From IMG/VR virus record IMGVR_UViG_3300021961_010439, positions 1 to 64,000 of that record: 64,000 nucleotides of DNA; one strand, written 5' to 3'. The first letter of the stretch is position 1. Each line of letters opens with the position of its first letter. Below the pieces are notes generated by a model. The model did no database searches. It was not told the origin of the DNA and saw nothing but the letters and a program-made list of their open reading frames with translations. This document shows positions 3,782 through 51,534 of this stretch, piece by piece. The position numbers and the translations under genes are program-made. The DNA comes from a virus.

Positions 3782-3805
3782 TAAGATTTAAATAGGATAT
3801 TAAAT

Positions 3806-9800: not shown

Positions 9801-10654
9801 GATTAAGAGGACCTCTTATGGTTCATGGTTGGGGATATGATACAGAAGGATACCCTGTGCCGAATGCTTCTGGCGAATTACAGTATTTTGGTAATAATGC
9901 AGTATCAGCAACAGGAGTTGATGATCCAAATAATATTTCGTATGTATATAAAAATCAAAAATTTATGTTACTTGATGGTTCTGGTAGGGATATTAATGGA
10001 TTCACTGTAGATGATTTAAAAAATGCTGGTTTTACTATTGTTACCAATCCAACTGGACAGGGTCAAGGATATTATACGGCCCCATATAAAGAACCAACAT
10101 TTGCTCGTGGATGGGCCCAAATTCCATCAACATGGCCAGTTGGTCCAGTAGATCTAAGATGGGACGAAACAGCCAGGGTTTGGACAGCACCAAGTACATA
10201 TAAAAATGTATATGTATTACTAGAAGAAGATTTAAATAATAAGAATATTGCTAGAGGAGAAATAATAGATAATGGCATAGATATAAATAATACTATCTTA
10301 GCTTTAGGATATAGAAAAACCGTTTTTGTTAAAGATAATATGGGCATATACTCTGCTCCTAGATCCTCTATTATTTATTGTTCATATGATCAAGATGGTG
10401 GTTTTTATGAACCAATATCTCAGAGTACTTTTATAACATCTGGAACAATATTATCTAGTAATACTGCTAATTTATATAAACTATTTTATAGACAAGTATC
10501 ATCATTAGGTAATAATACAACAACTAATAATACTCCTAATTTTTATGTTGGTAAATTTATGAATCCTTTAGATTTTAGTATTTCTCCAGGAGACAGGGGT
10601 TTGTTTTTATATACCAAAGACGGATGGGTTATACAGTCTGTTAGGGGTGCATGA
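3806..10654 (+). CDS. Giant virion protein with DnaJ-type CxxC pair (2282 aa)
   Basis: A single 2,282-residue frame with an AGGATA-type ribosome site before the ATG. Most of it looks like repeated beta-rich, Asn/Ser/Pro-rich structural sequence. Near residues 1785-1788 it has CRYCYGQG and near 1834-1837 CPFC, the CxxCxGxG plus CxxC arrangement of a DnaJ-type zinc module, so a small zinc-stabilised fold is likely inside an otherwise structural protein. No protease, lysozyme or membrane motif was seen. Context (giant neighbours, same strand, ATGA overlap with the next gene) supports a tail, baseplate or appendage role; which one cannot be told. Confidence 0.65.
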   Translation: MSDNLDSAPVERREGTITQNIARDTSVSLSIADESLLYTDQRIYQYGQFGPYNQTLFLGCSIVNFNVNLGWGAEASSLSVSLVEDDSPHWLSPPFIANNNTIIGQNNLAINQPLNDINSRQTFDATNGVPIPDTRTDTSKPIYPVEGFSGPDARIGQDLHRNILLKEQEKNRVNTEENLLLNLPAVNPRRPDFGKVYYEIKTDGTYSKQYWTGKDPGFVGESYDILGTTVRFIYHDFEFVGVVTSWKNNGSSGGKNLYTVEIKSLSTLLKNTQLIISYYPGTIFSVVSPTDVPQPFSEISNFGFPSNNIGNRLNTLNSIDALNSNFSSGNFTGTIAAGNTPNVFNIYGYLESLKGWGKHDIDEQGTIVRDILVAMDDLINKSEPLTTPGDDEENPPPPQDQTKLIDPRFSPYGRIISKAPAIIKENALYKSPPLDANGNPRPITIQFLKDKYTIVSPQSESFKALKEEDIAQTELQSGSATIARQVLVPPDYTNNLSGNINLTLNKMGLVPTFISSDGVIRQQFTLDFSSLPIVPSGFRISGPVVSILDLVNHVCEATNHDYFVDFIPTGNPIGRNTIKIRTISRQKQPPNNYLVELIKDTENQNILTSYDYGLEFNDEATLRSMYIGAKQKRLLQLTSNFLSRKNNSLLFDPKAGVRLTHDTQNIFNALRAPNHLSIRNSGYTYYSSLNNIPGTLGSGTGSIVYDGPTIYSSGDTTNLWNYGGERDQNVGRGNYHKTIRFFNNSELDDYKNTSGDVFKDTAKAIFSVPDTQTQGDIIDVGTPQPEGAEALQDNYPLWDDFICPYFGLGIDGTARHVSFDTKMQQLQVLCNVADIQNILGFALTKALKISYNTEQQTDPGGTPVPDPTPPTTSSVTSYPDNEFKGISDLNDPQNVSKQMCANLDGPSSTINTFHTKWNVTSREYADGEEKFLLLENEIRAAIAGFDSWIYYTFNKNFTTDLGVLLRYALVSQTGLIVSEQANDDYSKTVNNGEPIVSMVFHGPDPHLIGDNVAESPNSSASMMNDRVSEMLQKVHGYVKNIGDTYYGKQFMVKIPGITISRDKPLTSVRDFDIIHSGNTIPIEQYNGQGKLYPNYKPATDGAWEEVGNVIDDTIIIGSITGDFFTTDDGRFGPILGYNASYEYLNDTIPDVTLTKPTKPDPEASPTTTPPIKFVSLNNSPSNYESVNLSDNTKSPGFKNVNEISQATIDTIPIGEDATLPSKNPPTLAMILALSSQPATGTDITPSGWYPSLITSMGNNEYLFYPYNFPGYGNISELWQFTFSDAVFMGLSAYGSGVPTSTTNLEEHLQYKLYAKGSIEDNFVFIRPYNASTGYREPRAIINISSPVECNPVHLASKYVHHCLMLDSTIFKLVRGGTAPNSVKSVRSIQWRKNLSDNCTGTVIGGLFPYSGGFGLSTNVITNATDHFLDALNAVDKDANKAVTMPIAPKAAMPGFAAVPVESQAAVYGPWLNYPWLVRKEIFTNSDIRDNNSYLNDSIQNLVGGLKVNIVEELAPWKFGGMKNLDMEAIARVENDSNYQIQQEYGTINFPGAPIYRIGDFVDKVSSLNSGPIINSIRTNIGEGGISTEYSLRTFTRRFGLFNKENAQRAAQVSSERLARRKAIALQAAEVSNRIISNAKGQTLNDAPKRNFTNPPLPESWRSSSELLVGHNELNIRLPLLSRKNPEDQKDAVNNIDQIIKYNSKWPYNPIWASGRPDGSGYNVLDYPKIFSNTQLMDNREATSILETSYENTSFMSLDGLLSPISFYPTENARTYHITKYPRKSCRYCYGQGKIVYSYGLSGLNNLLDAQSSSDFIPQSATNGPQAYVEQFISCPFCEPESSKAAVLLTTSKRGKANPPFIVTTGVDTIRANPEEINGTRVYKSVGTVINYSTLNPAILSYGEFSAFQNRQSGDYTSNSIRMLGIGTIPPNKASDSLNQMYTSDNRLYKSNLEYDQLYLDKVSELHNIPLEKRTANITQLLAAVPPSPKPFRNNARFFGLRGPLMVHGWGYDTEGYPVPNASGELQYFGNNAVSATGVDDPNNISYVYKNQKFMLLDGSGRDINGFTVDDLKNAGFTIVTNPTGQGQGYYTAPYKEPTFARGWAQIPSTWPVGPVDLRWDETARVWTAPSTYKNVYVLLEEDLNNKNIARGEIIDNGIDINNTILALGYRKTVFVKDNMGIYSAPRSSIIYCSYDQDGGFYEPISQSTFITSGTILSSNTANLYKLFYRQVSSLGNNTTTNNTPNFYVGKFMNPLDFSISPGDRGLFLYTKDGWVIQSVRGA

Positions 10655-13600
10655 TGTCTCAATGTGATATTTTTTCTAAGCCATTTTCTGCTACTGCTAC
10701 AGATATTAATAGATGGAATATACAACTAGGTTGGTTACAATCACTAATACCTAGTTTTAATGCTAATACTAGCGGTATATGGCAACCTATTATCTTAAAT
10801 AGACAAAGATCTGGACCAACAGAATACGGAAAATTATTAAGTTTTCCAAAAAATACTAATGATAGTGAAGTAGCTCCATGTGAATGTACTTTAAATCCGA
10901 GTAGAATTTCTAGAAATGTTCAACAAAAACTTGTTGCTTTTAGTGAATATTGGCCTGGTGATCCTGAAGATGGGATTTTTTGTGATTATTGTGAGACTAT
11001 TAGAGTAGAAACTCCAAAATATAATAATTGTATTGTTAATGTAAATTATATACCAAAAAGAGAAGGGGTACAAGCAGGAATAGTTACATGGCCACCGGAG
11101 CCAGAGGCTCAAGGTAATGCAGGAGTTTTTACTCCTACTTGTTGTCAAGGTGGTTGTGATACGAGAGCATTAACAGATGATTTATCTCCTAAAATACCAT
11201 ATTTATATACTAATTATCATACAAAGTTTAGTGACTTTAAATATCATAAACAATTTCCTTCTATTACTAATCCTGGTTTGGGTTATGAAAAATTTGCAAC
11301 ATATAATGGTTCTTTTAATGGTATAGCTCTTAGTAATATGAGTTTGAATATAGATTGGACATTAGAGCCAAGATTGGGAGAGATAGAACCACCAAGTAAT
11401 CATACAGATACATATCATGAGAATATGTATTCTCATAAAAAATCATATAAAAATTATTTGCTATCTAATAAAACATGTGGTAATTTTATACTAACAGAAG
11501 TTAATAGATCTACTAGTATAGCTACTTTACAAGAAGCTAGAATGGTTAAAATTAGTGGTATAAATTTAGGCTCCGGCGTTAGGGATTATTTAAATTCACT
11601 AGATACCGTTATACCACCAACTACAAAATTTACTATACCATATGGCATAAGAGATGATACTCATTGGAACATATTCCTAAAAAAACCCTTCGATAAAGAA
11701 GGAGGGTTCTGGAAATGGAACATATCTTCCGGAGTTATCGGCTGGTATAGATATTATGATAGAGATAGAACCAATGACACAAGACCCATTCCGGGTATAG
11801 ATTTATATATTAGTGATGGAGATGTCTTTTTTGCAACAAATGATGGTCCTGAACCAAATGCTGTTCCTGTAGGCGATGGTAATTGTAATCCTAGAGTATG
11901 TCCATCTGGTTTAAAACTAAGTAATTATACTCTTATTAGTAGTAGCGGACAAATTACGGTAGTTCCTAGTGGATCACAATTCATCTATATATCATCTAAT
12001 TTATATGATAAAGTATTTTCCATTATGGAAAAAATTATTGTTAAATATCGTACAGATTTATCTTTACCCAATCTAAAATATAAAGACATTTTATCCACTG
12101 CGGCCATATTAGCAACCGGTCCAGAATTTGATGGTATTACAGTTGATACTTTTTCTACCGCTCCTCAATATACTAATTTAGATAAAAAAGAATTTGTAAA
12201 TTTAATTAATAACAGATCAGATCGTCCGCAACAACCTATTACAGTTGCACAAATTGATGCATATTTATCAACAAATCCAGTAATCGATATTTATGGTAGA
12301 GATGCAGATGTTGTGAAAAAATTAACCAATAAGCCTATGGTGTCATATAATGGATTAAATATGATAGGCACTACTGGAGATTTGATAGACACATTGATAC
12401 ATAAATATGGGTCATATTTATTTTTACCTAAAAATTCTATCGGCACTGTAGAAATTAATAATACCATATATACCCATGCTGCAATAGATATAAATTTTGA
12501 ACCAATTGTTTTAAAATCTGATACATATAATTCTACAACACTTAATAATCCAAGACTAGATTGTAGTTCAACTATTCGAGGAAATACCAAAATTTTTGGA
12601 TATGATCAAACATTTCAAATAGGCAGTTCTGTTCTGAGAAGTAAGATTATAGATACTAGTCTAGCATATAACACTATCTGCACTGGAAATCCTCCTGTGA
12701 GCACCATTTATAGTGCTGTTAATACTATGAGCGTTTATGCTAATAATGAAAGAATATTTAGTCAAGCAATAGGTGAGTCTATTACTAAATTTACAGATCT
12801 TTATTCTAGATTCCCATCTGTATCATCAGTATTAAGTCCACCAAATATGACATATAATGGTAATGTAACCGCAGGATTTAATTTTCAAGATTTAAATGAG
12901 TACGAAGATGGTTATAATGACGCTGGTGTTTATACATTAGCACCAGATAAACAATTAAGATTAAATAGAGCGTATAATGCTTTAGCGGCACATTCTGCTA
13001 TAGACCTAGTGGCTTTTCATCAAGATGGAGGATTTTTTTATGATAGTACGATGCTAAATAAGTATCCTGGCACAGGAACAGTGGCTTTTATTAAAAATTA
13101 TAGGCCAAATAGAATTAAAAGTAGACCCATAATTACTTTTGAAACATATGATATAGCATTAAAAATATATGATATGGAGATATACAAACTAAGAGATCCT
13201 AATAATTTATCCTGCAAAACTATGCCAACAGATCAAACATGTAAATGTTGGGGCCTTGATATTGTTGAAAATTATCCATATAAATGTAGTAATTCTACAT
13301 TAGAACTAAAAACTCCTGAGTTGTATACTCCATTTTTATCCACAGCTTCTAATCCAGGATTAGCATATGGAGGATATCCATTGGAAAAAGTGCAAGAAAT
13401 ATTAGGAGATTTTAGAATTCCAGGTCATCCAGCGCCTGGCGCCAATTTACCATATACAGATAAATCTATTACATTAAATAATGTTTTAGGTTGTAAATAT
13501 ACTGCTAGTATGAATTTATCTACATATGTAAATGCTAACTGGAAAATTAGGTTACCGGACTGGGATACTACAAATGGTGATATTTGGGTTTATTTCACAG

Positions 13601-20288: not shown

Positions 20289-21089
20289 TTATTCTCCTAT
20301 TAGAATAGTTCTATTATCTATATCTGGAAATTTAATCTTAATTTTTTCTAGAATATCTCTTAGTTCTTGATATAACAACAATGCTCTAGATTTAGAAAAA
20401 TCTTTGCTTTGCTTAACCCTGATTAATACTAATCCTTTCCCCAAAATTAGTCCTGTTTTTTTATTATCGTATTTGATATTCTTTTTCAAAGCATCGTCGC
20501 CCCATACAGGAGCAAAATGAGATGGTCCGTCTACCTCTATCGCTACATTCATAGTAGGCAAAAAGATATCAATCTGCAACTTGGTGTTCAATAGTATTTG
20601 TTCTTTGTGAAACTCTACTTTGTAGCCATCGGCTATTAAATTATTAAGTAGGTATTTCTCTAATTTTGATCCTGTTTTACTAGTTTTTCTAACAGCTTCA
20701 TTTGCTGATTTTAGTATCTGCTCTTTAGTGTCTTCAGATAAGTTATTCCAATTATCTCTAGCAACTTGTTGTCTTTGTTGTTTTATATCATCAGAAAGTT
20801 CTTCCCAACTAATCATTACTGATTGTCCAATTTTTTCTTTGGTTTCTTCGTCTCTGGTTTGTCCTTTTGTGGGGTGTTTGTGTCTACCAGATTTTAGTGC
20901 TGTTTTTTGTGCAATGCTTTTATCTCGTAAAACTATCCCATATTTTTTTGCATCTCGGCGTATTCTATTAGCATATGTTGATAGCTTATCGGCTATGACT
21001 GCTAAGCTTTCTTTTTTATCACTATAAAGCTTTTTAATTATAGACTTTTTTTCTTGATCTGTCATTTTGTCATAAGCTTTGTATAACAT
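20289..21089 (-). CDS. Putative HTH plus PD-(D/E)XK endonuclease (266 aa)
   Basis: The start is set at ATG 21089 because AGGAG stands 7 nt upstream (21097-21101); an ATG at 21116 would put that signal inside the gene. Residues 10-60 look like a helix-turn-helix with a basic stretch, a Lys/Thr-rich linker follows, and the C-terminal half has IDIFLP then IEVDGPSHF and a later LVLIRVK strand, which matches the D-x(n)-(E)xD core of Vsr/DUF559-like PD-(D/E)XK nucleases. Proteins with this layout in phages are often free-standing homing-type or DNA-repair endonucleases. It overlaps the upstream gene by 20 nt. Confidence 0.6.
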   Translation of the reverse strand: MLYKAYDKMTDQEKKSIIKKLYSDKKESLAVIADKLSTYANRIRRDAKKYGIVLRDKSIAQKTALKSGRHKHPTKGQTRDEETKEKIGQSVMISWEELSDDIKQQRQQVARDNWNNLSEDTKEQILKSANEAVRKTSKTGSKLEKYLLNNLIADGYKVEFHKEQILLNTKLQIDIFLPTMNVAIEVDGPSHFAPVWGDDALKKNIKYDNKKTGLILGKGLVLIRVKQSKDFSKSRALLLYQELRDILEKIKIKFPDIDNRTILIGE

Positions 21090-21531
21090 TCTGACACTCC
21101 TGTAAATTAAAACCATCTTGCATATTTAGGATTGGTTGATCAAAACAAATACTATATAAATCATATGTTTTTTTGTTAAGAGTAACTATTTTCGTTTGTG
21201 AATTTAGTAAATTGTTCCATGTTGTAGATGGGAGAAATTTGTTTTGCCAGACAATAGAATCGGCGATAAAAACTTTATGAGATGGTCCAGGAAAAGAGTT
21301 TATAATAGATAAAGAGTCTACGTCAAAACAAAATAGTATCCCATAAAAATAACGAGCATTTACAGACGGCAATAAGCAAAATTTACGATTATTATCTGTT
21401 TGTTCGTAAATAGTATTAAACAATATAGTATTAGTAGAGGACGTTGTTAATCCGTTAAGAACATCCACAATCAAGCGATGATGAGGCATGACTGTGATAT
21501 GGGGGCAATAAAATCCTATTTGATGTTTCAT
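21070..21531 (-). CDS. Unknown protein of the first glycan island (153 aa)
   Basis: No known domain was recognised in this 153-residue protein. It has a short HITVMPHHRL segment near the N-terminus and mixed alpha/beta composition without membrane segments. It overlaps the stop of the upstream glycosyltransferase-like gene by 4 nt (ATGA) and belongs to the same transcript. A role in glycan modification is suggested only by its neighbours. Confidence 0.5.
   Translation of the reverse strand: MKHQIGFYCPHITVMPHHRLIVDVLNGLTTSSTNTILFNTIYEQTDNNRKFCLLPSVNARYFYGILFCFDVDSLSIINSFPGPSHKVFIADSIVWQNKFLPSTTWNNLLNSQTKIVTLNKKTYDLYSICFDQPILNMQDGFNLQECQNVIQSL
21097..21101 (-). promoter_or_regulatory. Ribosome binding site for the 21089 start
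   Basis: The minus strand reads AGGAG here, with a 7-nt spacer to ATG 21089. It lies within the coding end of the upstream gene and excludes the longer start at 21116. Confidence 0.7.
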
Positions 21532-27577: not shown

Positions 27578-27606
27578 ATTATAACAGGGCCACGCGGCCA
27601 TGTCAA
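27578..27606 (-). promoter_or_regulatory. Consensus sigma70 promoter of ssb
   Basis: On the minus strand TTGACA (27606-27601) and TATAAT (27583-27578) are separated by exactly 17 bp, an ideal match to the bacterial housekeeping consensus. Transcription should begin near 27571, leaving a leader of about 37 nt before ATG 27534. The -35 hexamer contains the TGA stop codon of the polymerase C-half gene. The spacer holds GGCCGCGTGGCC, a short GC-rich inverted repeat unusual in this AT-rich DNA that could be an operator. Confidence 0.8.
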
Positions 27607-29210
27607 GACGATGGTAGAAAAACCTTTTCAACAATTAATCCATCTTTCGTATTAGATTTTTTACCTTTAATAATAATAACATTACCTTCAAATAGTACGT
27701 GTCTAAACTGTTTATACTGTTCAGAAAAACACACTATTGAATCTGCACAACCAGTACCATCAACAACAGATAAAAAGGCCATATCTTGACCCTTACTTTT
27801 GCCGCTTTTGGTTTTTACAACATGTATTCTATCTATTTCTCCTGCTAGTAGAATATTAGATAAGTTAATATTATTTTTAATATCTCTACATGTTGCATTG
27901 GTCATTGTTATATCATACATATCAATTTTAGAACATGTTATAGGACATCCTAATAGTTCATTTTCTGTATCTGATATCCACTCAGCAGAATCTTCTAAAC
28001 TAAATGGTGGATGTAATACAGTATACATTAATTCTTGTACAATAGCTAGCCTATTTTTAGATAGTTTATTTTGTGCAAGATATTGGAGGCTACTATAAAG
28101 ATTATTATTTATGTTCGACTTGATAATCTCTAGTTCTCTCGCTGTTAGTTGAGATAATATTGATAGGTCGAACAACATACCATTACGACTTTTTCCAAAA
28201 ATATCTAATGCTCCCGACCCTATTAATGCTTTGGCCGCTACACTATTAATTTTTAATAGAACGTCTATCAAGAATAGATACCAGTAATTAGAATCGTATT
28301 TAACATTAGCGGCCTCAATAATTTTAATCATCTTATCAAATACTGATTTACCAACACCCTTAATATCTGTTAGTCCAAAATAAATATTTTCATTATATAA
28401 ACAGAAGAATTCATTTAGTAATCTTATATCTGGTGTTCTTATAGAAATATCCATTTCATTACCATTTTGAACCAATTCTTTAATTTCTTGCTGAGGATCT
28501 ATTTTGTCTTTAGCAAATCTTAGATATGAAGCAAAGAATATTTTTGGAAAATGAGCTTTAGTGTAGGCCGATAAATATGCATTAATAGCATAACTAACAG
28601 CATGACTTTTATTAAAAGAATATCTTTGGCTTTTCTCGATCCATCCGAAAATTTCTTCTGCCTGATCCTGATTAACTATTTGTTGATTTTTCGATCCTTC
28701 AAGGAATTTTAATTTTACTTTTGCCATTTCTTCTGGTTTCTTTTTACCAATAGCTTTTCTTAACATATCGGCCTCTTGAAGATTAAAACCAGCAACAGTT
28801 TGTGCTATTTCCATAGCTTGTTCTTGATAAATCATTTCTCCATAAGTGGTCTTTAGTGCTTTTTCAAGAGACGGATGAAAATAATCTAAACTTTCTTGTC
28901 CATTCTTTTTATCTATATAATGGTTGCTAACACTTTTACCTTCTCTAAAAGCTTCAAGAGATCCTGGTCTCATGATGCTAATTAAAGCAGAAAGTTGTTC
29001 TATATTTTCTGGTTTAAGTTTTTTGGCCATAGTTCGTCCAAGTCTTGATTCTAACTGAAAACATCCTTTGGTATTTCCGGACGAAATCAAGTCCCAAGTT
29101 CTAGAACACTCCAGGTTAATATTATCTATAGAAGCATTAAAATCTATAGATAATGATTCTTCATTTATGACTGGAAATTTACAGCCACAAGGATAAGTAA
29201 AATATTTCAT
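27603..29210 (-). CDS. dnaE: DNA polymerase III alpha, C-terminal half (535 aa)
   Basis: This gene encodes the second part of a DnaE-type replicative polymerase. After an unusual N-terminus (YPCGCKFPV), CFQLESRLGRTM, LSALISIMRPG, MIYQEQAMEIAQ, MLRKAIGKKKPEEMAK and YSFNKSHAVSYA follow in DnaE order (palm/thumb/fingers), then a tandem helix-hairpin-helix region (IYFGLTDIKGVGK) and a C-terminal OB fold (residues about 445-535). The three catalytic Asp residues are not here; they are in the N-half gene (30058-31959). The ATG overlaps the exonuclease stop as ATGA and no strong ribosome site is visible, so translation is probably coupled. Confidence 0.9.
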   Translation of the reverse strand: MKYFTYPCGCKFPVINEESLSIDFNASIDNINLECSRTWDLISSGNTKGCFQLESRLGRTMAKKLKPENIEQLSALISIMRPGSLEAFREGKSVSNHYIDKKNGQESLDYFHPSLEKALKTTYGEMIYQEQAMEIAQTVAGFNLQEADMLRKAIGKKKPEEMAKVKLKFLEGSKNQQIVNQDQAEEIFGWIEKSQRYSFNKSHAVSYAINAYLSAYTKAHFPKIFFASYLRFAKDKIDPQQEIKELVQNGNEMDISIRTPDIRLLNEFFCLYNENIYFGLTDIKGVGKSVFDKMIKIIEAANVKYDSNYWYLFLIDVLLKINSVAAKALIGSGALDIFGKSRNGMLFDLSILSQLTARELEIIKSNINNNLYSSLQYLAQNKLSKNRLAIVQELMYTVLHPPFSLEDSAEWISDTENELLGCPITCSKIDMYDITMTNATCRDIKNNINLSNILLAGEIDRIHVVKTKSGKSKGQDMAFLSVVDGTGCADSIVCFSEQYKQFRHVLFEGNVIIIKGKKSNTKDGLIVEKVFLPSS

Positions 29211-29905
29211 ACTGTTGATGTTGCAAATGAATCTTTAAATAGGATTTTATGAGATAATCTACGATGTAGTTTCATAAATCTAATCAAAATCTCAGCAGTA
29301 TCTTTAACGTCCTTAATAGCATCGTGAGCGCCTTCTTTGGGTATGCCAAAATAATCTCTAACATTATCTAGTGTATAACTAGTTAGGTCTTGGTTGTTTT
29401 CAAACCATAAAAACATTACATTCATAATATCAACAACATCTCTCATAAAAAATAGATTACTTCTACTTTCTTTATTAAGATTATTATACTTCTTACTTAG
29501 TCTTTCGATAATCTGTAGATCAAATCTGTGAATATTGTAGCCTGCGGCAATTGGAGCCGTAAATTGGCTCTTTTTACCTCCTCTACAATGATATTTCATA
29601 AGATAATCTACAAATAAAGACCAAGAGCTTTTTTGAGAAGGATACTGATTCCATTCTGCTAGTACATTCTCTTTTGTTGATCCTTTAACTTTAGCATGAA
29701 AATCTAGGATATCTCCCTCATAAATATAATTAGGATTATCTTCTAGAACCTCTGGCTTAAAATTAATATTGAATTCTGATCCAGGAATAATTGACAACTG
29801 TAATGGATCAACCATAACGGCCGCGATTTGAACAGGACTACAAATAAATGGATCCGAGCCATCTGTTTCAAAATCAAAAACACAAATTTTGTTATAATTA
29901 ATCAT
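29207..29905 (-). CDS. DEDDh 3'-5' exonuclease, DnaQ-like (232 aa)
   Basis: ExoI FDFETDG (D11, E13), ExoII YNIHRFDLQ (D129) and ExoIII GAHDAIKDVKDTA (H194, D199) give a complete DEDDh set, as in DnaQ/epsilon proofreading subunits. DnaE-type polymerases lack their own proofreading active site, so this enzyme is the likely proofreader of the split polymerase. It lies physically between the two polymerase halves, overlapping the 61-codon gene by 8 nt and the C-half by 4 nt. Confidence 0.9.
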   Translation of the reverse strand: MINYNKICVFDFETDGSDPFICSPVQIAAVMVDPLQLSIIPGSEFNINFKPEVLEDNPNYIYEGDILDFHAKVKGSTKENVLAEWNQYPSQKSSWSLFVDYLMKYHCRGGKKSQFTAPIAAGYNIHRFDLQIIERLSKKYNNLNKESRSNLFFMRDVVDIMNVMFLWFENNQDLTSYTLDNVRDYFGIPKEGAHDAIKDVKDTAEILIRFMKLHRRLSHKILFKDSFATSTV

Positions 29906-30083
29906 TTACTTCCACTTGTGCAACTGGTACAATAAATCTTTTATCTTCTGGATTATCTTTTTTAGCAGCGTTAAGTGCTGTGCAGCAACTTACTCTAATT
30001 GTTTCTATCTTAGTATAGTTTTGACCCTCATATACAAATGAAGATCCTACGGCTAATTCATGAAATTGTACACTCTTGGACAT
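29898..30083 (-). CDS. Small phage protein between polymerase halves (61 aa)
   Basis: A 61-residue protein with a very good ribosome site, GGAGG 5 nt before ATG 30083, embedded in the end of the polymerase N-half (26-nt overlap). It reads F-x-E-L-x-x-G-S-x-F-x-x-x-G-x-x-Y-T-K-I with a CCTALNA segment, a pattern I associate with small conserved phage proteins of SH3-like beta-barrel appearance. Function is unknown; position suggests an accessory of the polymerase. Confidence 0.7.
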   Translation of the reverse strand: MSKSVQFHELAVGSSFVYEGQNYTKIETIRVSCCTALNAAKKDNPEDKRFIVPVAQVEVND

Positions 30084-31959
30084 TTTTTCCTCCAGTTTTA
30101 AGTAAATCTTTAATTGTCATAATCTTATCTAACATTGCTATACCCAATATATCGAATTTAATTATACCGATACTTTCTAAATCTTGCATTTCCATTCCCG
30201 CAATAAGTTGTTCGTTTTTTGAATCGTATACCATCGGGCAAATAGTTTCAAGCTGTTTTTCTGCTATAACAACTCCTGCCGCGTGTTTGCTTTGATTCGA
30301 CTTTGTTCCTTCTAATCTAATAGCCTGCTCAAACCTTTTGGCAAGTGGCCCTTTTAATTCTTGTGTGTCTTTATCCAGATAACACCAGTCTTTGAGATTG
30401 TCCGCATTATTTTCTAATGCCCACTGTATAATAGATGCTTCGCCGTATTCTTCTTTCATTTCTTGAAGTTCATCTGCTATTTTGGCTTCATCAGGAATAT
30501 ACTTGGTTATTTTATTCATTTCATCAAACGATATATTACCATATACTCTTAAAACATCTTTTAGGGCTCCTCTACCTTTCATTGTATTAAAAGTTATCAT
30601 TTGAGATACTTTATCGAAACCATACTTTTGTTTAATGTATGTAATAATATTTTCTCTTTTGTTGATTGGTACGTCAACATCTATATCTGGCATTGATACT
30701 CTATCTTTTGTATTTCTTCCAGCATTATAAAATCTATCAAAAATTAGATTATATTTAATTGGATCAATACTTGTTATACCAATAAGATACGAAACTAAAC
30801 ATCCCGCAGCGCTTCCTCTTCCGGGTCCGGGTAACCAATTATTGGCTTTTACATAATTAACTATATCTTGAACAATAAGAAAATAACTAGATAAACCAGC
30901 TCCTTGTAAAACATCTAATTCATATTTAATTCTGTCAACATATTCACTTTGATTTTCTTTTGCAATACTGTTTGCTATTTTTTCTTTCCACCCATCTCTA
31001 CATAATTGTCTTAAATATTCAGCATCATCATAATTGGATGGACACTTAAACATTGGTAGCATTGGTTTGTGTGTAATATCATATTCTTCACATAATGAAT
31101 CTACATATTGAGTATTTTCTATTTCTTCCTCTGTATGTAAATTATTAATCTCTTCTTGTGATAAAATATGAAAATTATCAGAAGTAAAAAAACAACTCAT
31201 ACCAACTTCTTGGTCAGAATCCATTTTAGACTGTATATTCTGAAAAGTTGTTTTCAAATTATTGCATAATAGCACTCTTTGATCAACAGCATCTTCTTTT
31301 CTGCAATAATGAGCATCTGGAGTACATATTACTTTTGTGTTTGATGCTAATCCTAACTCTCTAATTTTTTCTGTAAGAGTTTCTTGTATAGGATTATTAA
31401 TTTTATCCATTAATTGGGCTTCTAAAAATAAATTATCCCCAAATATCTCTTTAAGTTCTGATATGCAATTGAGACCAATTTTTTTCCAGTCATCTATGAT
31501 AGTATCATTTAGTACTATTCTATCAGCTAACACCGATCCAAGATGACCACAAATGCCTATAAGGTCAGGCCCACAAACGTTTTTGAGTCCGTTTAGATCG
31601 ATCCTAGGCTTCCTATAAAAACTTTCCGGGCTGTTGGATACAGAAATTAAACGGATAAGATTTTGCCAACCTCGTAGATTCTTAGCCAATACAAGAAAAT
31701 GAGATAGTTTGCTATTTTCTTTAACTTTATTTTTAGGATCATCTTTGCATACATATATTTCACAACCAAGAATAGGCTTAATATTCTTTTTCTTCATAGA
31801 TGTAAAAAACTGAACAGATCCAGCAATATTACCATGATCCGTCAAGGCACAAGACTTTGCTCCTATCTCGTGACATCTATCAGCAATTTGCTCAGGTTTG
31901 CTTAGTCCGTCTAATAAAGAAAAATGAGAATGTACATGGAGAGGAATATAAGTTTTCAT
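30058..31959 (-). CDS. dnaE: DNA polymerase III alpha, N-terminal half with PHP domain (633 aa)
   Basis: Residues 1-260 are a PHP domain (HVHSHFSLLDG, LTDHGN, a later TPDAHYC). The polymerase part has GPGRGSAAGCLVSYLIGIT and MPDIDVDVP, giving D425 and D427, and IGIIKFDILG, giving D603: these equal E. coli D401, D403 and D555, so the full catalytic triad is in this half. The frame stops 30 residues later, just before the thumb/FQLES region, which begins anew in the C-half gene. The end of the gene contains the ribosome site of the 61-aa gene. Start overlaps the nuclease gene as ATGA. Confidence 0.95.
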   Translation of the reverse strand: MKTYIPLHVHSHFSLLDGLSKPEQIADRCHEIGAKSCALTDHGNIAGSVQFFTSMKKKNIKPILGCEIYVCKDDPKNKVKENSKLSHFLVLAKNLRGWQNLIRLISVSNSPESFYRKPRIDLNGLKNVCGPDLIGICGHLGSVLADRIVLNDTIIDDWKKIGLNCISELKEIFGDNLFLEAQLMDKINNPIQETLTEKIRELGLASNTKVICTPDAHYCRKEDAVDQRVLLCNNLKTTFQNIQSKMDSDQEVGMSCFFTSDNFHILSQEEINNLHTEEEIENTQYVDSLCEEYDITHKPMLPMFKCPSNYDDAEYLRQLCRDGWKEKIANSIAKENQSEYVDRIKYELDVLQGAGLSSYFLIVQDIVNYVKANNWLPGPGRGSAAGCLVSYLIGITSIDPIKYNLIFDRFYNAGRNTKDRVSMPDIDVDVPINKRENIITYIKQKYGFDKVSQMITFNTMKGRGALKDVLRVYGNISFDEMNKITKYIPDEAKIADELQEMKEEYGEASIIQWALENNADNLKDWCYLDKDTQELKGPLAKRFEQAIRLEGTKSNQSKHAAGVVIAEKQLETICPMVYDSKNEQLIAGMEMQDLESIGIIKFDILGIAMLDKIMTIKDLLKTGGKNVQECTIS

Positions 31960-36174: not shown

Positions 36175-36672
36175 TTAATTCTTAATAGATGCCTTTGATC
36201 TGTAAACCATTGTTAAAATATCAGCCAAATTTTTAATATTGCCAGATAAATATGACAACCTATCGGACCTTTGTTTGGCATACTTCTTAATTTTATTCAG
36301 TGCGGTCGCCTTGTCATTGTGTTTGATAGCCTGAAGAGATTTTTCCATGAAACCATAACCTTTATAGTTATTGATCTCATCTGCTATAACTTCTTTCATT
36401 GTCTCATCTGCCCAATTGTATCTAGCTAATTCTCTATTGTTTGTTCTTTGTATGTGCAATGATAATTGCGTTAGTCTATATGCTATCTGTAAACAATCTT
36501 CTGGAGTTAATTTTTCTATCTGATCCCTATTCATTGAGAAATATATATTACTCTCTGATTCTGGAAAAAGATCTGACTGATATTTAGCAAGTCCGATAGA
36601 TGATTCATATTCATCTAGTATCTTGTCCCATTCTTCTAATTGTTCTTTTGCTGTTCTAGTCGTTTCTGCCAT
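36175..36672 (-). CDS. Unknown helical protein upstream of helicase (165 aa)
   Basis: No known domain was recognised. The 165 residues are mostly helical and charged, with a conserved-looking LTPEDCLQIAYRLTQLSLHIQ segment and a basic C-terminal helix region. It sits between a putative endonuclease gene (37-nt overlap) and the helicase gene (2-nt gap), so a helicase loader or replication accessory is conceivable but not shown. Confidence 0.55.
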   Translation of the reverse strand: MAETTRTAKEQLEEWDKILDEYESSIGLAKYQSDLFPESESNIYFSMNRDQIEKLTPEDCLQIAYRLTQLSLHIQRTNNRELARYNWADETMKEVIADEINNYKGYGFMEKSLQAIKHNDKATALNKIKKYAKQRSDRLSYLSGNIKNLADILTMVYRSKASIKN

Positions 36673-37049
36673 TGTTCATCGCTTTCATCAAAAGGAAATT
36701 CTATGTAAATAATACCATTTTTATCACACCATTCTTGTTTTTCAAAATCTCTTTTTCTATGTCTAAGAAATCCTAAAGTATTACCATGATAATGAGCAAC
36801 AAATTTATAGTGTTGTTCTCCATGGGTCTCTATGCACATTCTTTTTAATGGTATATAAAAATCCAAATATAATGTATCGCTTTTATGTGTCTTTATGGGA
36901 ACTTCTTCCAATATTTGTAATGTTGGATAAGTAGAAATAATAATGTTTCTAGCTCTTAAATGTAACGAAGATTTTTTAATATTCAGATTTGGTTTATGTC
37001 CAACCAAATTCCAAGCATACATATTATCATCTAAGTCATATACATTCAT
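36636..37049 (-). CDS. Vsr/DUF559-like endonuclease (137 aa)
   Basis: TLYLDFYIPLKRMCIETHGEQHY contains D63 and E74 followed by the H-G-E-Q-H signature, then RKRDFEKQEWCDKNGIIYIEFP. This is the compact PD-(D/E)XK core of very-short-patch-repair/DUF559-type nucleases that recur in phage recombination regions. It overlaps the recA stop by ATGA, so the two are probably translated together and may act in one recombination pathway. Confidence 0.7.
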   Translation of the reverse strand: MNVYDLDDNMYAWNLVGHKPNLNIKKSSLHLRARNIIISTYPTLQILEEVPIKTHKSDTLYLDFYIPLKRMCIETHGEQHYKFVAHYHGNTLGFLRHRKRDFEKQEWCDKNGIIYIEFPFDESDEQWQKRLEQQKNN

Positions 37050-38803: not shown

Positions 38804-39385
38804 TTAAGAATATAAGGATAGATAGTTTTTCCATGCTGCTGGCATGTCTATACCTATAGTAGAAAGTTGTCTCGACACTGGCAAGAACCTAGAATCATAT
38901 TTGGGTTTATGTGGGTTTGTTAGTAGTTTCATACTTGCTTGTTCTGGTGTCTTATTATTTTTTCTTCTATTGCATACTGTACATGCTGTTGTTATATTGC
39001 ACCAATTAGTTGCTAATTCTTTGTTTGCTCCAAATTTACTTTTAGGAATAACATGATCATATGTTAGTTCTTGATATGCAAAACTTTTACCACAATATTG
39101 ACAAGTATAATTATCTCTTATAAAGAGATTTTGTCTAGAAAATTTTAATGACCTATTGAATAGATTAAAATACTTTACTGTTTTAGCAACAGACGGTACT
39201 GGGTGTCTTTTATCGTTAGTGCCTTGTATATATTTATCTTGGTAATACTCAACTATTTCTATAGCATAGTTATGATCATATTGATATTTCATAGACCATA
39301 TAATTGCTTTTTGCCAACTAATAATCTTTAATGGTGAATAGTCAGCATTTAATAGTAAGCATGTGCTATTTTCTGCCTTGTTCAT
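38804..39385 (-). CDS. HNH endonuclease (193 aa)
   Basis: CQYCGK (C95, C98), LTYDHVIPKS (D110, H111), NWCNITTAC (Asn) and CTVCNRRK (C135, C138) give the complete zinc-bound HNH motif in the C-terminal half; the N-terminal 80 residues form an additional domain starting LLLNADYSPL, the layout seen in phage and bacterial HNH proteins next to recombination or RuvC-like genes. It probably nicks or cuts DNA during phage replication or acts as a free-standing homing nuclease. It overlaps phoH by 20 nt. Confidence 0.85.
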   Translation of the reverse strand: MNKAENSTCLLLNADYSPLKIISWQKAIIWSMKYQYDHNYAIEIVEYYQDKYIQGTNDKRHPVPSVAKTVKYFNLFNRSLKFSRQNLFIRDNYTCQYCGKSFAYQELTYDHVIPKSKFGANKELATNWCNITTACTVCNRRKNNKTPEQASMKLLTNPHKPKYDSRFLPVSRQLSTIGIDMPAAWKNYLSLYS

Positions 39386-43849: not shown

Positions 43850-45163
43850 TCATGCGAATACAAAAGTTTTTTTATCGAGCAGTAAATCTCTATTATTAAC
43901 TTTTATATACGAATTAGTTAAATCGTTTTTATTTTTAATGTCTATAGTAAAGGGAGGTACTTCGTAAATGCCTTCAGAACGAGAACTTATCCATTGATTT
44001 ATTTGAGAAATAAACTGTTGTCTGTTTTGATTAAAGTTATCTATTAAATCCGAATAATTTATAGATATGTTAATATCGTGAGTGTGAATAAAATTAGATT
44101 GATACTGTATATGATTATCTATTGTAGAGTTATTGAATAGATATTTGACTTTATTCCAATGATCTGTTGAATAATCCCATCTAAGATTTGTATAATACTG
44201 ATATTCAAATAAAATTCTTCTATTTAATTCTGTAGCAACACTTTCATCATTTAGATATAGTGTTTTACAGTAAACTTCTAAAAATTGTAATACATTAAAA
44301 TCTACAAATTGATCAATATTTAAATATATACCAATATCAAAAATAGGTTTAGCATCATGTCCAAAAAATCCCCACTTTCGAGTAAATCTTTTTAATTCTT
44401 GATAATCAGCATATTGTTGTAAAATATTTTTTTGTTGTATTTTTTTATCTGATTCAGCTTTGAACCAATCTTTTCCACGAGAAGAAACACAAGTAAAATG
44501 GTAAACACTAGCATCCCATGTTTGTACTAATTTTAAACCAGCTAATTTCATTCTAATAATCATATCAGAATCTTCTCTAGAACATCTAAATTGTGTATCA
44601 AAACCACCTAAAGTTTCAAGCCATACATTCTTATATAATGCAAATGGCGCAAAATGTCCTTCTGTATTTTGTTTGTTTGATTTTTGTAATTGAGTAGCAA
44701 ATTCTTGAAATTCATCATATTTAAAGATCTCGGGACTAGTTCCAAAGTCTTGAATAATTTTTTCTGGCGATGCTGGATGTAGCGGAGGCTCTATGCGTGT
44801 ACACGTTAAGACTATAGATTCATTGTGTAGATTTTTACTAATATGTTTATCAAAATCCCTACATGCTACCATATCTGATTGTAAATAACATACAATATCG
44901 TTAGATGCCGCATCAAACATTAATGATATGTTTCTTTGTCCCCCTATTTGGGTTGGTAAAGTATTTCTATATATTTTTAAATTTGGGACAGTTTTTTGAA
45001 ATTCTACTATTGCTTCATACGAGTGTTGATTATCACTATCTATAAATATTAGTATTTCATGTTTATCAATTTGTGTATTTTCTTTTAATGATTTCAATAG
45101 TAATAATACATATTCTTTTTCGTTTTTGGCTGTTGGTATACAAAATGTTATTGGTTTTATCAT
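43850..45163 (-). CDS. GT2-family glycosyltransferase (437 aa)
   Basis: Residues 1-240 are a GT-A domain: ITFCIPTAKNEKEYV, ILIFIDSDNQHS, GGQRNISLMFDAASNDIVCYLQSDM (metal-site S-D in place of D-x-D), then GGFDTQFRCSREDSDMIIRMKLAGLKL, where ED provides the catalytic base. The remaining 200 residues are an Asn/Tyr/Phe-rich region of unknown role. It would add a sugar to a growing glycan, on the cytoplasmic side. It overlaps the SDR gene by 4 nt. Confidence 0.85.
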   Translation of the reverse strand: MIKPITFCIPTAKNEKEYVLLLLKSLKENTQIDKHEILIFIDSDNQHSYEAIVEFQKTVPNLKIYRNTLPTQIGGQRNISLMFDAASNDIVCYLQSDMVACRDFDKHISKNLHNESIVLTCTRIEPPLHPASPEKIIQDFGTSPEIFKYDEFQEFATQLQKSNKQNTEGHFAPFALYKNVWLETLGGFDTQFRCSREDSDMIIRMKLAGLKLVQTWDASVYHFTCVSSRGKDWFKAESDKKIQQKNILQQYADYQELKRFTRKWGFFGHDAKPIFDIGIYLNIDQFVDFNVLQFLEVYCKTLYLNDESVATELNRRILFEYQYYTNLRWDYSTDHWNKVKYLFNNSTIDNHIQYQSNFIHTHDINISINYSDLIDNFNQNRQQFISQINQWISSRSEGIYEVPPFTIDIKNKNDLTNSYIKVNNRDLLLDKKTFVFA

Positions 45164-45993
45164 ATTTTTCCTTTATTTTTATATGTATTATACATCAACT
45201 TTATACTATTTTCAAGACCAAGGTACTGAATATGTGTTTCAACATATTGCCCAATATAATCTTTATCTAAAATACTAGATGGATATTCATATTTTATATT
45301 AACTTTATGAGTATCAAGGTTATTTATTATCTGAGCAATATCAGATAGTTTTACCTTTTGCTTATAGCAACAATCAAAAAGCTTTGGTATATTATTTGAA
45401 TCAAGAAAAAAATGTATCAATTGCGCCAAATCACCAACGAAGAAAAAATCCATTTTTCTATCTTTATGAATTATAATGTCTTCATTATTAATATATTTGA
45501 TAATATTACCTCTAATCATCCTATCGGGCTCTTCGTCTAGGCCAAAACAATTGTAAATTCTAAAATTACATAATTTTGGTTCATCAGCAGAGATTTTATC
45601 TATAATGCTTTTTGATAATCCATATGGATCAATAGGATATCTATTAATAGCCTGTGGATTAATATCATATCTTCTATCTAATTCTGCTCCGGACCCGAAA
45701 GATATAATGCATTGGTAGTAATTTTGATTACGTAATAAATTATATAACATTAAGATATTATTATATACTATATCATTGGTATCATGAATATTTCTTCGAC
45801 CACCCTGAATAGCTGTATGAATAACAAGGTCAAAAAATACTTTTTTATTAGCAAAGTAATTATTAACAGAATCGCTATCTAATAGATTAATGTCGTCTCT
45901 TGTTAATGTGTATATATTATACTTATAAGATCTTAATATTTTACAAAGATTTCTTCCTATAAATCCATCTGAACCAGTAATTAGAATATTCAT
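45160..45993 (-). CDS. NAD(P)-dependent epimerase/dehydratase, extended SDR (277 aa)
   Basis: TGSDGFIG (residues 6-13) is the Rossmann cofactor loop; H-T-A at about 59-61 and YGLSK (Y124, K128) give the SDR catalytic pair, with FGSGAELDRRYD before it. Extended SDRs of this length act on NDP-sugars (epimerase, reductase or dehydratase); the exact reaction cannot be read from sequence. It belongs to the second glycan island, 3 nt from the FkbM-like gene. Confidence 0.8.
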   Translation of the reverse strand: MNILITGSDGFIGRNLCKILRSYKYNIYTLTRDDINLLDSDSVNNYFANKKVFFDLVIHTAIQGGRRNIHDTNDIVYNNILMLYNLLRNQNYYQCIISFGSGAELDRRYDINPQAINRYPIDPYGLSKSIIDKISADEPKLCNFRIYNCFGLDEEPDRMIRGNIIKYINNEDIIIHKDRKMDFFFVGDLAQLIHFFLDSNNIPKLFDCCYKQKVKLSDIAQIINNLDTHKVNIKYEYPSSILDKDYIGQYVETHIQYLGLENSIKLMYNTYKNKGKI

Positions 45994-45996
45994 GTA

Positions 45997-46563
45997 TCAC
46001 CTAGAAGCATATACAAGATTACATATATTATATACTCTAGGATAAAATGTACAAACAGTATTTATCTTAAAATCTAGCTTATCAAGCTTTTTAATTATAT
46101 GATTCAACAAATCTTTATTATGGGTCTCTATTGCAACATGTTTTAATGTTGGAAAACTACTATCTGAATTAATAAAATGAATTTCTTCACCTTCTATATC
46201 CATTTTTAATGAAGTTATATTATAAGAATCGATATAGTGATTTACTTTATTTGAAGAGTCTATAGCATCGTGATAAAAGCTATGTAATGGAAATAGTTTT
46301 TTAAACGTTGCGATGTCGTTATATTCAGTATCAACACCAATAATTTTAGCGGCTTGTTTTTTGATAAAATATTTAGGAGTAGAATCCCATCCAGGTTCAA
46401 TCATATGAAATCCACAGCCCAAATCCAAGACTATTTCGTCTTTAACTGGTAATAGATTCCAGTGATGATCTGGGTGTTCTGATTCTATATGAGCATGTTT
46501 TATGTTTGGAAATTGTAAAAATATTTCCGGATATAAAAAATTTTCTAGTACTTTATTTGACAT
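45997..46563 (-). CDS. FkbM-type SAM methyltransferase (188 aa)
   Basis: VLDLGCGFHM (45-54) is the SAM-binding motif I, AKIIGVDTE motif II, and SLKMDIEGEE the FkbM-type motif, followed by LKHVAIETH. FkbM-family enzymes usually O-methylate sugars or polyketide intermediates. It is somewhat shorter than typical family members. Probably it caps or decorates the phage-directed glycan. Confidence 0.75.
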   Translation of the reverse strand: MSNKVLENFLYPEIFLQFPNIKHAHIESEHPDHHWNLLPVKDEIVLDLGCGFHMIEPGWDSTPKYFIKKQAAKIIGVDTEYNDIATFKKLFPLHSFYHDAIDSSNKVNHYIDSYNITSLKMDIEGEEIHFINSDSSFPTLKHVAIETHNKDLLNHIIKKLDKLDFKINTVCTFYPRVYNICNLVYASR

Positions 46564-46565
46564 AA

Positions 46566-47321
46566 TTATTTTTTCCTAAAAACTGCTAGATAGTTAACAT
46601 TATTTTTGTCTAATACCATTTCTATTAATTCAAAATTATTTTGTAAATCTTCATTTTGTCGATCATGTAAAAAGTGAGATTTAATAATGCCATTATGTTC
46701 TGACATCAGTAGATCTTCTGTTAGTAGTGAATTATCATATTTAAATTTACCTCTAGTATATCTAGGATTTTGTAAATCTTCCATAAAATAATATCCACCA
46801 GATCTTATCATGTCTCTAGATTGCCATAAGCTTACTATCATATGATTAGGCCAATGACTACCATCTTCTACAAAAAAATCAAAATCTTTTGGACATTCGT
46901 TTTTAAGTTCATTCCAATCACAAAAATTTCCCTGATCGGCATAAACAAAATTTACTCCCCAACTATTTATCATTTCTATTTCATTAATTCTATCTTTCAG
47001 ATATGTGCCCCAAAAATTATCTACTCCATATAAATCTATATTTTTAAAGTATGATAACCACAATTTAGGAGAAGCATATGGAAACCTTTTATCACAAATA
47101 CCTATTTCAAAAAGCTTAATAGATTTTTCTCTATATTCGTGCATATATTTTTCATATGTTTTGGTATATCCCATACACACATGTTCTGGCCAATCCTTAC
47201 CCCAAGACAATAAATTTTTATCAGCATCTCCCTTGTCTGTTTCTAATAAATTGGCTATTTCTGTTAGACATTTAGTATTATCATAAAAATTATTATTTGA
47301 TGTTTTGGGAAATAGTTTCAT
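46566..47321 (-). CDS. Class I methyltransferase, sugar O-methyltransferase type (251 aa)
   Basis: LLETDKGDADK, YEKYMHEYREKSIKLFEIGI (motif I), LYGVDNFWG (motif II), FVYADQGNF and DFDFFVEDGSHWPNHMI are a sequence of motifs shared with MycE/rhamnosyl O-methyltransferase-like proteins that carry the D-G-S-H metal-linked segment. It most likely O-methylates a sugar. It is downstream of the TPP enzyme gene with an 8-nt gap. Confidence 0.75.
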   Translation of the reverse strand: MKLFPKTSNNNFYDNTKCLTEIANLLETDKGDADKNLLSWGKDWPEHVCMGYTKTYEKYMHEYREKSIKLFEIGICDKRFPYASPKLWLSYFKNIDLYGVDNFWGTYLKDRINEIEMINSWGVNFVYADQGNFCDWNELKNECPKDFDFFVEDGSHWPNHMIVSLWQSRDMIRSGGYYFMEDLQNPRYTRGKFKYDNSLLTEDLLMSEHNGIIKSHFLHDRQNEDLQNNFELIEMVLDKNNVNYLAVFRKK

Positions 47322-47329
47322 AAAAGTCC

Positions 47330-49108
47330 TTAAATATTTAGGTCTATTGGAGAAATTAATAAATTAGCTAAAAATTCTTCTCTGTCTAAAAATGGAGCAA
47401 GATCTTCCATGGGTCTTGTTTCAAAACTACCATCAGCTTTTTTATATACCGAGGCTTTTGGCATAGTTTTATGATTTTGGTCCACTAATAATTCACATAT
47501 AATTGGTCCTTCTGTATTTAAAACATTTTCCAGTTCTTCTGCGAGATTAGCTTGATTCTTAATCAAAACATATGGTATATTATATGCAAATGCATTTTTT
47601 TCTATAGAAGGTAGTGTCAATCCGCTTGCTGGATCGCTTGCTATTACTCTTCCTCCAAAATGAGTATTTTGTGTTGTTCTAATAGATCCGTATCCATTAT
47701 TGTTAAGAACAAAAAATTTGATAGGTAAATTATATCTATGTACTAATTCAAGTTCTTGAATATTCATAAAAAATCCACCATCACCATCAATAGAAATGGT
47801 AGTTTTTTTATTATTAGCTAAACATCCACCAATAGCTGCTGGTATTCCAAATCCCATAGATCCTAAACCTTCGCTATTATATATTCTAGTTTTATTTTTA
47901 ACCCTAAAAGCCTGCATTGTAACTTCACTACAAGCACCAGAACTACCAGGAACTAATAATGATTCTTCTGGTAATAGATCGGATAGATAATGAATAAATG
48001 CATAATTATTAACTCTTGGAAAAGATGGGTCCAAATATTCTGGTAATATTACTGGATATTTATTATATAGATTTTTACAAAATAATAGCCACTCATCTAT
48101 TTCTAGTTTGTTAATTAAATCATTTATGGATGAGAAAAAAACTTTAGCATCCATTGGTACTGGATATTCAATTTCGCAGGTTAGTTTATTTATCTCATTT
48201 GGATCGACATCTACTATACATTTCTTCGCCTCTCTTGCAAAATACTTATGCTGATATGCTAACTGACCATGGTCTAATCTAGCTCCAACACAAATAATAA
48301 AATCAGAATTTTGTTGATTAAAATTAGCTCCTCTTTGACCGACTCCTCCAGGTCTGCCAACAAATTGAGGATGATCATCAGCGAGTAAATCCATCATTTT
48401 CCATGATGTCAAGACTGGTATGTTTGTTTTTTGAATAAATTCCAAACATGATGGTATACTATCGGATAATCTAACTCCATTTCCAACTAGCAGTATTGGA
48501 CGTTTAGCTTTTGTAAGATCTTCTTTTATCTTTGATATAATACTAGTATCATAATTAAGTTTTGGTGGATTGAATCCTAACAGACTATCAACATCAATTT
48601 CTGTTGATTGTATATCCAAAGGGATATCTAATAATACAGGTCCGGGGCGTTCGTGAGTTGCCAACCATATAGCTTTTTCTAAATGATACCTTATATCTTT
48701 GGCATAATCAACCGTTATAGCATATTTAGTTATTGATTTATATATCTTAACAGTATCTATTTCTTGAAATCCTAACTGTCTAATGCCAAGATTTTTGGCC
48801 CTATCTTTATTTTGTACTTGTCCAGATATAATTAAAACAGGTATAGAGTCTAGCCAAGCAGATGCTATTCCTGTAACAGCGTTTGTTGCTCCGGGTCCAG
48901 TAGTTACTAATAGTGCAGAAAGAGAATTGGATTTTTGAGCATATGATTCTGCTGCTATAGACGCAGACTGTTCGTGTAAAACTGGTATTAATTCAATTTT
49001 TGATTTGCTAAAAGAGTCTACTAAATGTATACATCCACCGCCGGGCAAAAGAAATAGATGTTTTATATAACCCTCCAACACCTGAACTATATAGTCTGAT
49101 AATTTCAT
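47330..49108 (-). CDS. TPP-dependent acetolactate synthase-like enzyme (592 aa)
   Basis: The start is ATG 49108, which overlaps the NeuB-cupin stop as ATGA; a TTG two codons upstream is not needed. The three AHAS domains are visible: PYR domain with catalytic-type Glu in VLHEQSASIAAESYA and LLVTTGPGATNAVTGIA; central domain with ILLVGNGVR and GRPGGVGQRG; and PP domain with SIDGDGGFFMNIQEL and FFVLNNNGYGSI, the TPP-Mg site. In sugar clusters this family includes YerE-type enzymes that add a two-carbon branch to 4-ketohexoses, as well as true acetolactate synthases. An RfbH-like gene 4 kb upstream favours sugar chemistry. Confidence 0.8.
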   Translation of the reverse strand: MKLSDYIVQVLEGYIKHLFLLPGGGCIHLVDSFSKSKIELIPVLHEQSASIAAESYAQKSNSLSALLVTTGPGATNAVTGIASAWLDSIPVLIISGQVQNKDRAKNLGIRQLGFQEIDTVKIYKSITKYAITVDYAKDIRYHLEKAIWLATHERPGPVLLDIPLDIQSTEIDVDSLLGFNPPKLNYDTSIISKIKEDLTKAKRPILLVGNGVRLSDSIPSCLEFIQKTNIPVLTSWKMMDLLADDHPQFVGRPGGVGQRGANFNQQNSDFIICVGARLDHGQLAYQHKYFAREAKKCIVDVDPNEINKLTCEIEYPVPMDAKVFFSSINDLINKLEIDEWLLFCKNLYNKYPVILPEYLDPSFPRVNNYAFIHYLSDLLPEESLLVPGSSGACSEVTMQAFRVKNKTRIYNSEGLGSMGFGIPAAIGGCLANNKKTTISIDGDGGFFMNIQELELVHRYNLPIKFFVLNNNGYGSIRTTQNTHFGGRVIASDPASGLTLPSIEKNAFAYNIPYVLIKNQANLAEELENVLNTEGPIICELLVDQNHKTMPKASVYKKADGSFETRPMEDLAPFLDREEFLANLLISPIDLNI

Positions 49109-50619: not shown

Positions 50620-50623
50620 AGTT

Positions 50624-50938
50624 TTAGGTTATTTGTTTAAAAAAGTCATTAAAGTCTAAAACATTTATATTTTTATCATCAATAAACACATCATAGTATG
50701 GCTTGCCAAAAAGAAGATCATGATATTTTACTTCCCACAATCTAAATTGATCTTTTGTTATAGTTGACCAATCTTTACCACTAATAGTACCTCTCGCTGT
50801 CCAATATATAATAGTATGTCCTTGGTCGTATAGGGCATTTGCTTTTTCAATATTTTCTTTTATAGGAGTACTTTTAGTATAATCCGATTTATCTGGGGTT
50901 TTGCAGATTGTGTCGTCTATGTCTATGTATATGATCAT
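50624..50938 (-). CDS. HAD-family phosphatase-like (104 aa)
   Basis: YIDIDDTIC (D6, D8) is the HAD nucleophile motif, IIYWTARG the second motif, and YDVFIDDKNINV the metal-binding third motif. The domain is minimal with no cap, like the small HAD proteins found in capsule and O-antigen clusters that dephosphorylate sugar phosphates. It overlaps the methyltransferase gene by ATGA and lies 4 nt from the NeuB-cupin gene. Confidence 0.75.
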   Translation of the reverse strand: MIIYIDIDDTICKTPDKSDYTKSTPIKENIEKANALYDQGHTIIYWTARGTISGKDWSTITKDQFRLWEVKYHDLLFGKPYYDVFIDDKNINVLDFNDFFKQIT

Positions 50939-51531
50939 ACTTTTTTACAAATTACTTGATAATCTGACCATAAAATTTCATAAAAAGAATTGTATATATG
51001 TATAAAATAGTCTATTGCTATTTTTGGATAAATATGTTCATTTGTATCTTTCCATAAATAATCATCAAAAATTAATAATCCATATTGTTTTAGTAATCTA
51101 TGACAAAGTACAGCATCTTCTAATATATTATGTGCTTTATGAGATCCATCTATATAAATGATATTATATGTGGGTTTTAAATCTAGTTTTCTTAGTATAG
51201 AATGAGATTCTCCAATATAAATATTTACTTTATTTTTGTGCTTATGAATATTATATTTGAATCTATCTAAGAGATTTTCTAAATCTAAAGTCTTCATACC
51301 TAATTCAGAATTAGATCCATTGAATGTATCAATAACATCTATTCGACACGTATCGTGTGTAAGAACATTATCTAATAAATATGTTGTTGCTCTACCTTCA
51401 AAACAGCCTATTTCTAAACATTTTAAATCCGACATTCCTATAAAATTATTATCTCTAAAAAATCTTTCCCATATTGGTATATTATAACTGAACCAATCTG
51501 TAGTGAATATATAATTATCTTTATCTAGCAT
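50935..51531 (-). CDS. Class I SAM-dependent methyltransferase (198 aa)
   Basis: CLEIGCFEGRATTYLL is SAM motif I, VIDTFNGS motif II, IIYIDGSHKAHNILEDA the Methyltransf_24 signature and LLIFDDYLW the following strand. Enzymes of this group methylate small molecules and sugars. The 3-nt gap to the RmlB-like gene and the ATGA overlap with the HAD gene place it in one translation chain. Confidence 0.75.
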   Translation of the reverse strand: MLDKDNYIFTTDWFSYNIPIWERFFRDNNFIGMSDLKCLEIGCFEGRATTYLLDNVLTHDTCRIDVIDTFNGSNSELGMKTLDLENLLDRFKYNIHKHKNKVNIYIGESHSILRKLDLKPTYNIIYIDGSHKAHNILEDAVLCHRLLKQYGLLIFDDYLWKDTNEHIYPKIAIDYFIHIYNSFYEILWSDYQVICKKV

Positions 51532-51534
51532 AAT

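Follow-up and report, generated by a model that had tools for sequence, protein, structure and literature searches.

A DnaE-type polymerase, probably assembled from two chains, whose genes part between palm and fingers around an exonuclease gene in an uncultured phage lineage

The stretch of DNA considered here (the ‘window’) comprises positions 1-64,000 of IMG/VR record IMGVR_UViG_3300021961_010439, a virus contig of 79,637 bases, and carries on its minus strand a DnaE-type polymerase (Pol III alpha) that is distributed over two genes, as an earlier note on this DNA had proposed. The first open reading frame (ORF) of the cassette, at 31959-30058, encodes an ‘N-half’ of 633 amino acids, with the PHP domain, the whole palm/thumb module and the catalytic residues D425, D427 and D603; the last, at 29210-27603, encodes a ‘C-half’ of 535 amino acids, with fingers, HhH and a probable OB region behind an N-terminal extension bearing a CGC motif. 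Between them sit a 61-codon ORF (30083-29898), whose product is predicted to be a small beta-barrel, and a 232-residue DEDDh 3'-5' exonuclease (29905-29207; D11, E13, D129, H194 and D199), with successive genes overlapping by 26, 8 and 4 bases.

On TIGR00594, the DnaE profile of 1022 positions, the N-half covers 1-574 and the C-half 579-1021, such that the break loses almost nothing; the halves are complementary on E. coli Pol III alpha as well, where they align to residues 6-566 and from 588 onward, respectively. Judging by these alignments, the stretch absent between them is the palm/finger linker. Pfam recognises PHP and DNA_pol3_alpha in the N-half (the latter matched over 1-260 of 260) and DNA_pol3_finger and HHH_6 in the C-half, where the OB match falls under the cut-off, with the PHP, palm and finger domains following each other in DnaE order across the two ORFs. 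In alignment with the Taq enzyme, D603 takes the place of the third catalytic Asp, and the N-half stops 30 residues further on, with FQLES at residues 51-55 of the C-half; both ends of the break thus lie where the earlier note had put them. By alignment and by profile, the N-half protein is much closer to DnaE than to PolC. A single-chain model of the C-half (predicted local distance difference test score, pLDDT, 85.6 overall) retrieves the Taq, E. coli and M. tuberculosis alpha subunits with Foldseek; its weakest stretch, residues 81-130, lies in the finger region, and the low confidence there could fit a requirement for the partner chain or, equally, an alignment effect.

The intervening exonuclease matches RNase_T in Pfam (E 2e-10) and the PHROG family annotated as DNA polymerase exonuclease subunit, and is a probable proofreading enzyme. 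Genes for a single-stranded DNA-binding protein, a PD-(D/E)XK nuclease, a deoxynucleoside monophosphate kinase, a Toprim primase and a DnaB helicase adjoin the cassette, which identifies the locus as a replication cluster.

Scans of IMG/VR returned hundreds of relatives, whose loci were classed with hidden Markov models of both halves and reduced to a non-redundant set. Palm and fingers lie in different ORFs, with the exonuclease between them, in 164 non-redundant viral loci, and within this ‘split’ clade they never share an ORF; a departure from the single chain through the active site that is otherwise a trait of DnaE. An assembly error as the cause of the break is ruled out by its retention in all 164. 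By these counts, the uncultured phage lineage with a two-protein, bacterial-type replicative polymerase is large. In a further 60 non-redundant loci the PHP domain stands apart from a fused palm-finger ORF, with an exonuclease between, and in 22 palm and fingers occupy one ORF, where every locus inspected belonged to another phage or was a bacterial DnaE. An intervening exonuclease is absent from four additional split loci, namely L001, which is a piece of the window itself, and L225, L229 and L235. We also observed that the DnaE of L225 (Bacillus phage KLEB27-3) is interrupted after FQIEL, at 6989-7998, with an HNH gene present, and that of L227 (Bacillus phage Jayan) near the PDID motif, at 6212-6483, in each case possibly by an intron.

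The residues expected of a working enzyme are retained. The Asp triad and the arginine of the GRG motif are invariant among 56 sequences, as are the DEDDh residues of the exonuclease among 38, and the N-half ends 21-32 residues past the third catalytic Asp across the 164 loci. In all four ORFs the rate of non-synonymous substitution lies well below the synonymous rate, the latter being near saturation for the more distant pairs. Split genes are often remnants and a host enzyme would be at hand, so that one might picture the halves as decaying, or as functioning separately, with the phage copied by the host polymerase; the invariant catalytic residues, the strong purifying selection on both halves and the presence of one palm and one finger module in each of 20 related contigs (56-231 kb) make this, in our estimation, very improbable. 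In none of the 20 do the two modules share an ORF, one having the palm in two ORFs and another a finger match interrupted within its ORF. No complete second polymerase was found in the 79,637-base record or in these 20 contigs, and Pfam profiles of PolA, PolB and the bacterial beta clamp matched nothing in the ten largest of them.

Might the halves be rejoined into one working chain, by a split intein, a trans-splicing intron or a programmed frameshift? Split inteins do exist in the lineage, though elsewhere in this polymerase: in L157, whose exonuclease is 99% identical, the intein N-terminal model has two matches above cut-off, one in the N-half (GPGRG^S) and one in the C-half (FNK^S). That same model is silent on both halves in the window, in agreement with the earlier note, which had seen no intein at the junction; the split inteins of the lineage thus lie at sites other than the palm/finger break. 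In addition, no Rfam intron is found at the locus and the N-half overlaps the next gene directly, whilst among the loci all three frames are represented at the C-half start, as counted from the end of the N-half, and both the N-half stop codon and the spacing vary. We therefore give rejoining very little credence, whichever the route. As observations on these insertions in their own right, the polymerase of L157 is spread over four ORFs (5454-6872, 6985-7848, 8696-9595 and 10523-11644), with each of its two intein-associated breaks flanked by split-intein halves and a LAGLIDADG gene inside the second, and L135, L160 and L194 carry a contiguous intein-like insert with an HNH-type nuclease near residue 84 of the C-half, at RPG^C.

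Synthesising these findings, we consider it very probable that the replicase of this uncultured phage lineage is an obligate two-chain, non-covalent DnaE-type Pol III alpha. One chain, PHP with palm/thumb, would bear the metal-binding Asp triad, and the other, fingers with HhH and OB, would provide binding of the incoming nucleotide and the template; both would be translated from adjacent and mostly overlapping genes and would dock via the ordinary palm/finger interface to form the active site, with proofreading most likely given by the exonuclease encoded in the break. In C-family enzymes metal binding belongs to the palm, whereas the incoming nucleotide and the template are held by the fingers, from which it follows that neither half should polymerise DNA alone. 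We infer that the halves bind one another, that the resulting complex polymerises DNA in cooperation with the exonuclease, and that it acts as the main replicase. Two points weigh against this proposal: other phages manage with the same enzyme as a single chain, and the contigs may be incomplete, which leaves some chance of an additional polymerase.

In the gap between the halves, the exonuclease is the constant occupant throughout the split clade, and the 61-amino-acid family is present in 156 of the 164 loci; a single copy, placed at the break, is carried by each of the 10 contigs checked, and F16, C33, C34 and V57 are invariant among 72 sequences. Its beta-barrel model is of high confidence (pLDDT 95.5) and gives weak matches to eIF5A-like barrels only in the PDB (best E 0.0098), along with unnamed small phage proteins (best E 3.7e-4), and nothing convincing in Pfam. 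The gene is missing, however, from the basal members L263, L264, L272 and L284, which rules out an essential subunit; the earlier note had placed its product, as a possibility, in the same particle as the polymerase. At L264 there are only the N-half, exonuclease and C-half, whilst the gap of L263 and L284 holds a gene of the uracil-DNA glycosylase superfamily and an ORF of ~100 amino acids, and in L272 a DUF5658-like and a weakly SNase-like ORF lie in the interval from exonuclease to C-half. L222 carries a DUF1559 pseudopilin-like gene and a ThyX gene in that same interval; in L169 the N-half and the small ORF are separated by an HNH endonuclease-like ORF that Pfam does not match at E 0.001; and L235, the nearest outgroup, has an RNase HII and a zinc-ribbon gene at the same break, and no exonuclease there.

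A stable particle holding both polymerase halves, the exonuclease and the 61-amino-acid protein would suit the gene order, the overlaps and the restriction of the small family to the break, but with basal members lacking that gene and others filling the gap we think such a particle rather unlikely. We also considered a metal site shared between the CC of the small protein and the CGC of the C-half; the N-terminal extension of the latter carries CxC in 157 of 164 loci (CTC in L235) and a Cys ahead of its TW motif in 164 of 164, and the idea is weakened by L153 and L156, which lack CGC yet keep CC. As for the fixed, co-translated cassette suggested in the earlier note, overlaps are indeed common, with median spacings of +2 bases from N-half to small ORF, -8 from small ORF to exonuclease and -4 from exonuclease to C-half. 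The cassette is not strictly fixed, since relatives have extra genes in the gap or no 61-amino-acid gene, and co-translation would be common rather than obligatory, as more than 100 bases of other DNA separate exonuclease from C-half in 6 of 102 loci.

To place the break in evolution we built a tree from joined palm and finger sequences (quick search, unrooted, without bootstraps; L235 and Rossellomorea phage phiT1 form long branches), with branch support from the Shimodaira-Hasegawa-like approximate likelihood ratio test (SH-aLRT). All 21 split sequences in the tree group together (SH-aLRT 100) with L235 as sister (88), and these, together with the second phage clade of 60 non-redundant loci (L236, at 2373-6560, and most of L328-L407) in which a DEDDh exonuclease separates the PHP part of DnaE from the palm, stand apart from all other DnaEs (98; unrooted). 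phiT1, a phage of Bacillaceae that shares the palm/finger break, falls outside, with approximately unbiased (AU) test p values of 0.0013 for grouping with the clade and 0.0115 for grouping with the clade plus L235; the break therefore probably arose at least twice.

How the break first arose is a separate matter, and one compatible with a two-chain enzyme. We put at about even chances the possibility that a mobile element, whether homing endonuclease or intein, or else a shuffling of genes cut a tolerant linker and that the result became fixed without benefit; an HNH-like ORF sits in the break of L169, other mobile elements invade the polymerase of relatives, gap contents vary, and phiT1 broke independently at the same point. 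Against such a ‘scar’ stand the clade-wide retention of the exonuclease in the gap and the presence, in the related clade, of an exonuclease in a different break, and this recurrence in both clades hints at selection for the arrangement. Somewhat more tentatively, and with the odds leaning against it, we speculate that the superclade has made Pol III alpha a modular, multi-gene enzyme, cut at palm/fingers in one branch and at PHP/palm in another, with the gene of the proofreading exonuclease in either break, in which domains may be exchangeable subunits alongside an exonuclease partner.

Clues to the host are few. Planctomycete-type DUF1559 genes occur in 2 of 20 contigs, namely the pseudopilin-like gene within the polymerase cluster of L222 (9119-10192) and one on the contig of L036, a possible host hint; contigs of the lineage from metagenome-assembled genomes have been binned as Chitinophagia and Flavobacteriales, possibly in error. 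Elsewhere in the window there are three free-standing HNH or homing-endonuclease-like genes (20289-21116, 36636-37049 and 38804-39385). Sugar epimerase, aminotransferase, glycosyltransferase and methyltransferase genes form a block at 43850-55616 that may serve the synthesis of a surface glycan.

C-family polymerases copy bacterial chromosomes, usually with a single chain that runs through the active site. A natural and long-established break that separates the metal-binding palm from the nucleotide-binding fingers suggests that such an enzyme can assemble from two chains, offers a natural split C-family polymerase for study, and opens the question of whether fingers and palm might be exchanged or separately regulated. 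On a practical note, gene callers will report phages of this kind as having two partial or broken polymerases.

Split replicases as such are already known; a full-domain palm/finger split around an exonuclease appears, as far as we found, undescribed, with no account of a phage DnaE divided at this site in the open-access literature searched, most subscription papers lying outside the search. In cyanobacteria, DnaE-n and DnaE-c are ligated by a split intein just ahead of FNKSH. Two genes are involved there too, but here, as the earlier note had recognised, that site is intact within the C-half, the cut lies between palm and fingers, and no intein was found. The PolB of Methanothermobacter, a replicative polymerase made as two polypeptides that form an active complex without an intein, offers a likeness in its two chains, but belongs to family B and has an unrelated fold. 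In PolC an exonuclease also lies within the polymerase region, fused inside the PHP domain of one chain, whereas here the exonuclease has a gene of its own, placed elsewhere. The break of phiT1 (gp20/gp18; PV767480) has the same location, and a 49-amino-acid ORF lies between the halves; this phage differs from the split clade in lacking both the intervening exonuclease and the CGC extension, and in its separate origin by the AU test. Some jumbo phages (group 2.2) likewise make the catalytic module of a Pol III alpha from two genes, in their case a minimal module whose two proteins are thought to reconstitute the enzyme (PMC7824862). That module is described as lacking the other Pol III domains and as divided into an NTP-binding and an Mg/DNA-binding subdomain, with distant genes for the two, in phages that have a PolB as well (PMC7824862). 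In the lineage described here, by contrast, ten related contigs show no PolB, the PHP, HhH and OB regions are kept, and the two genes stand adjacent to one another around the exonuclease.
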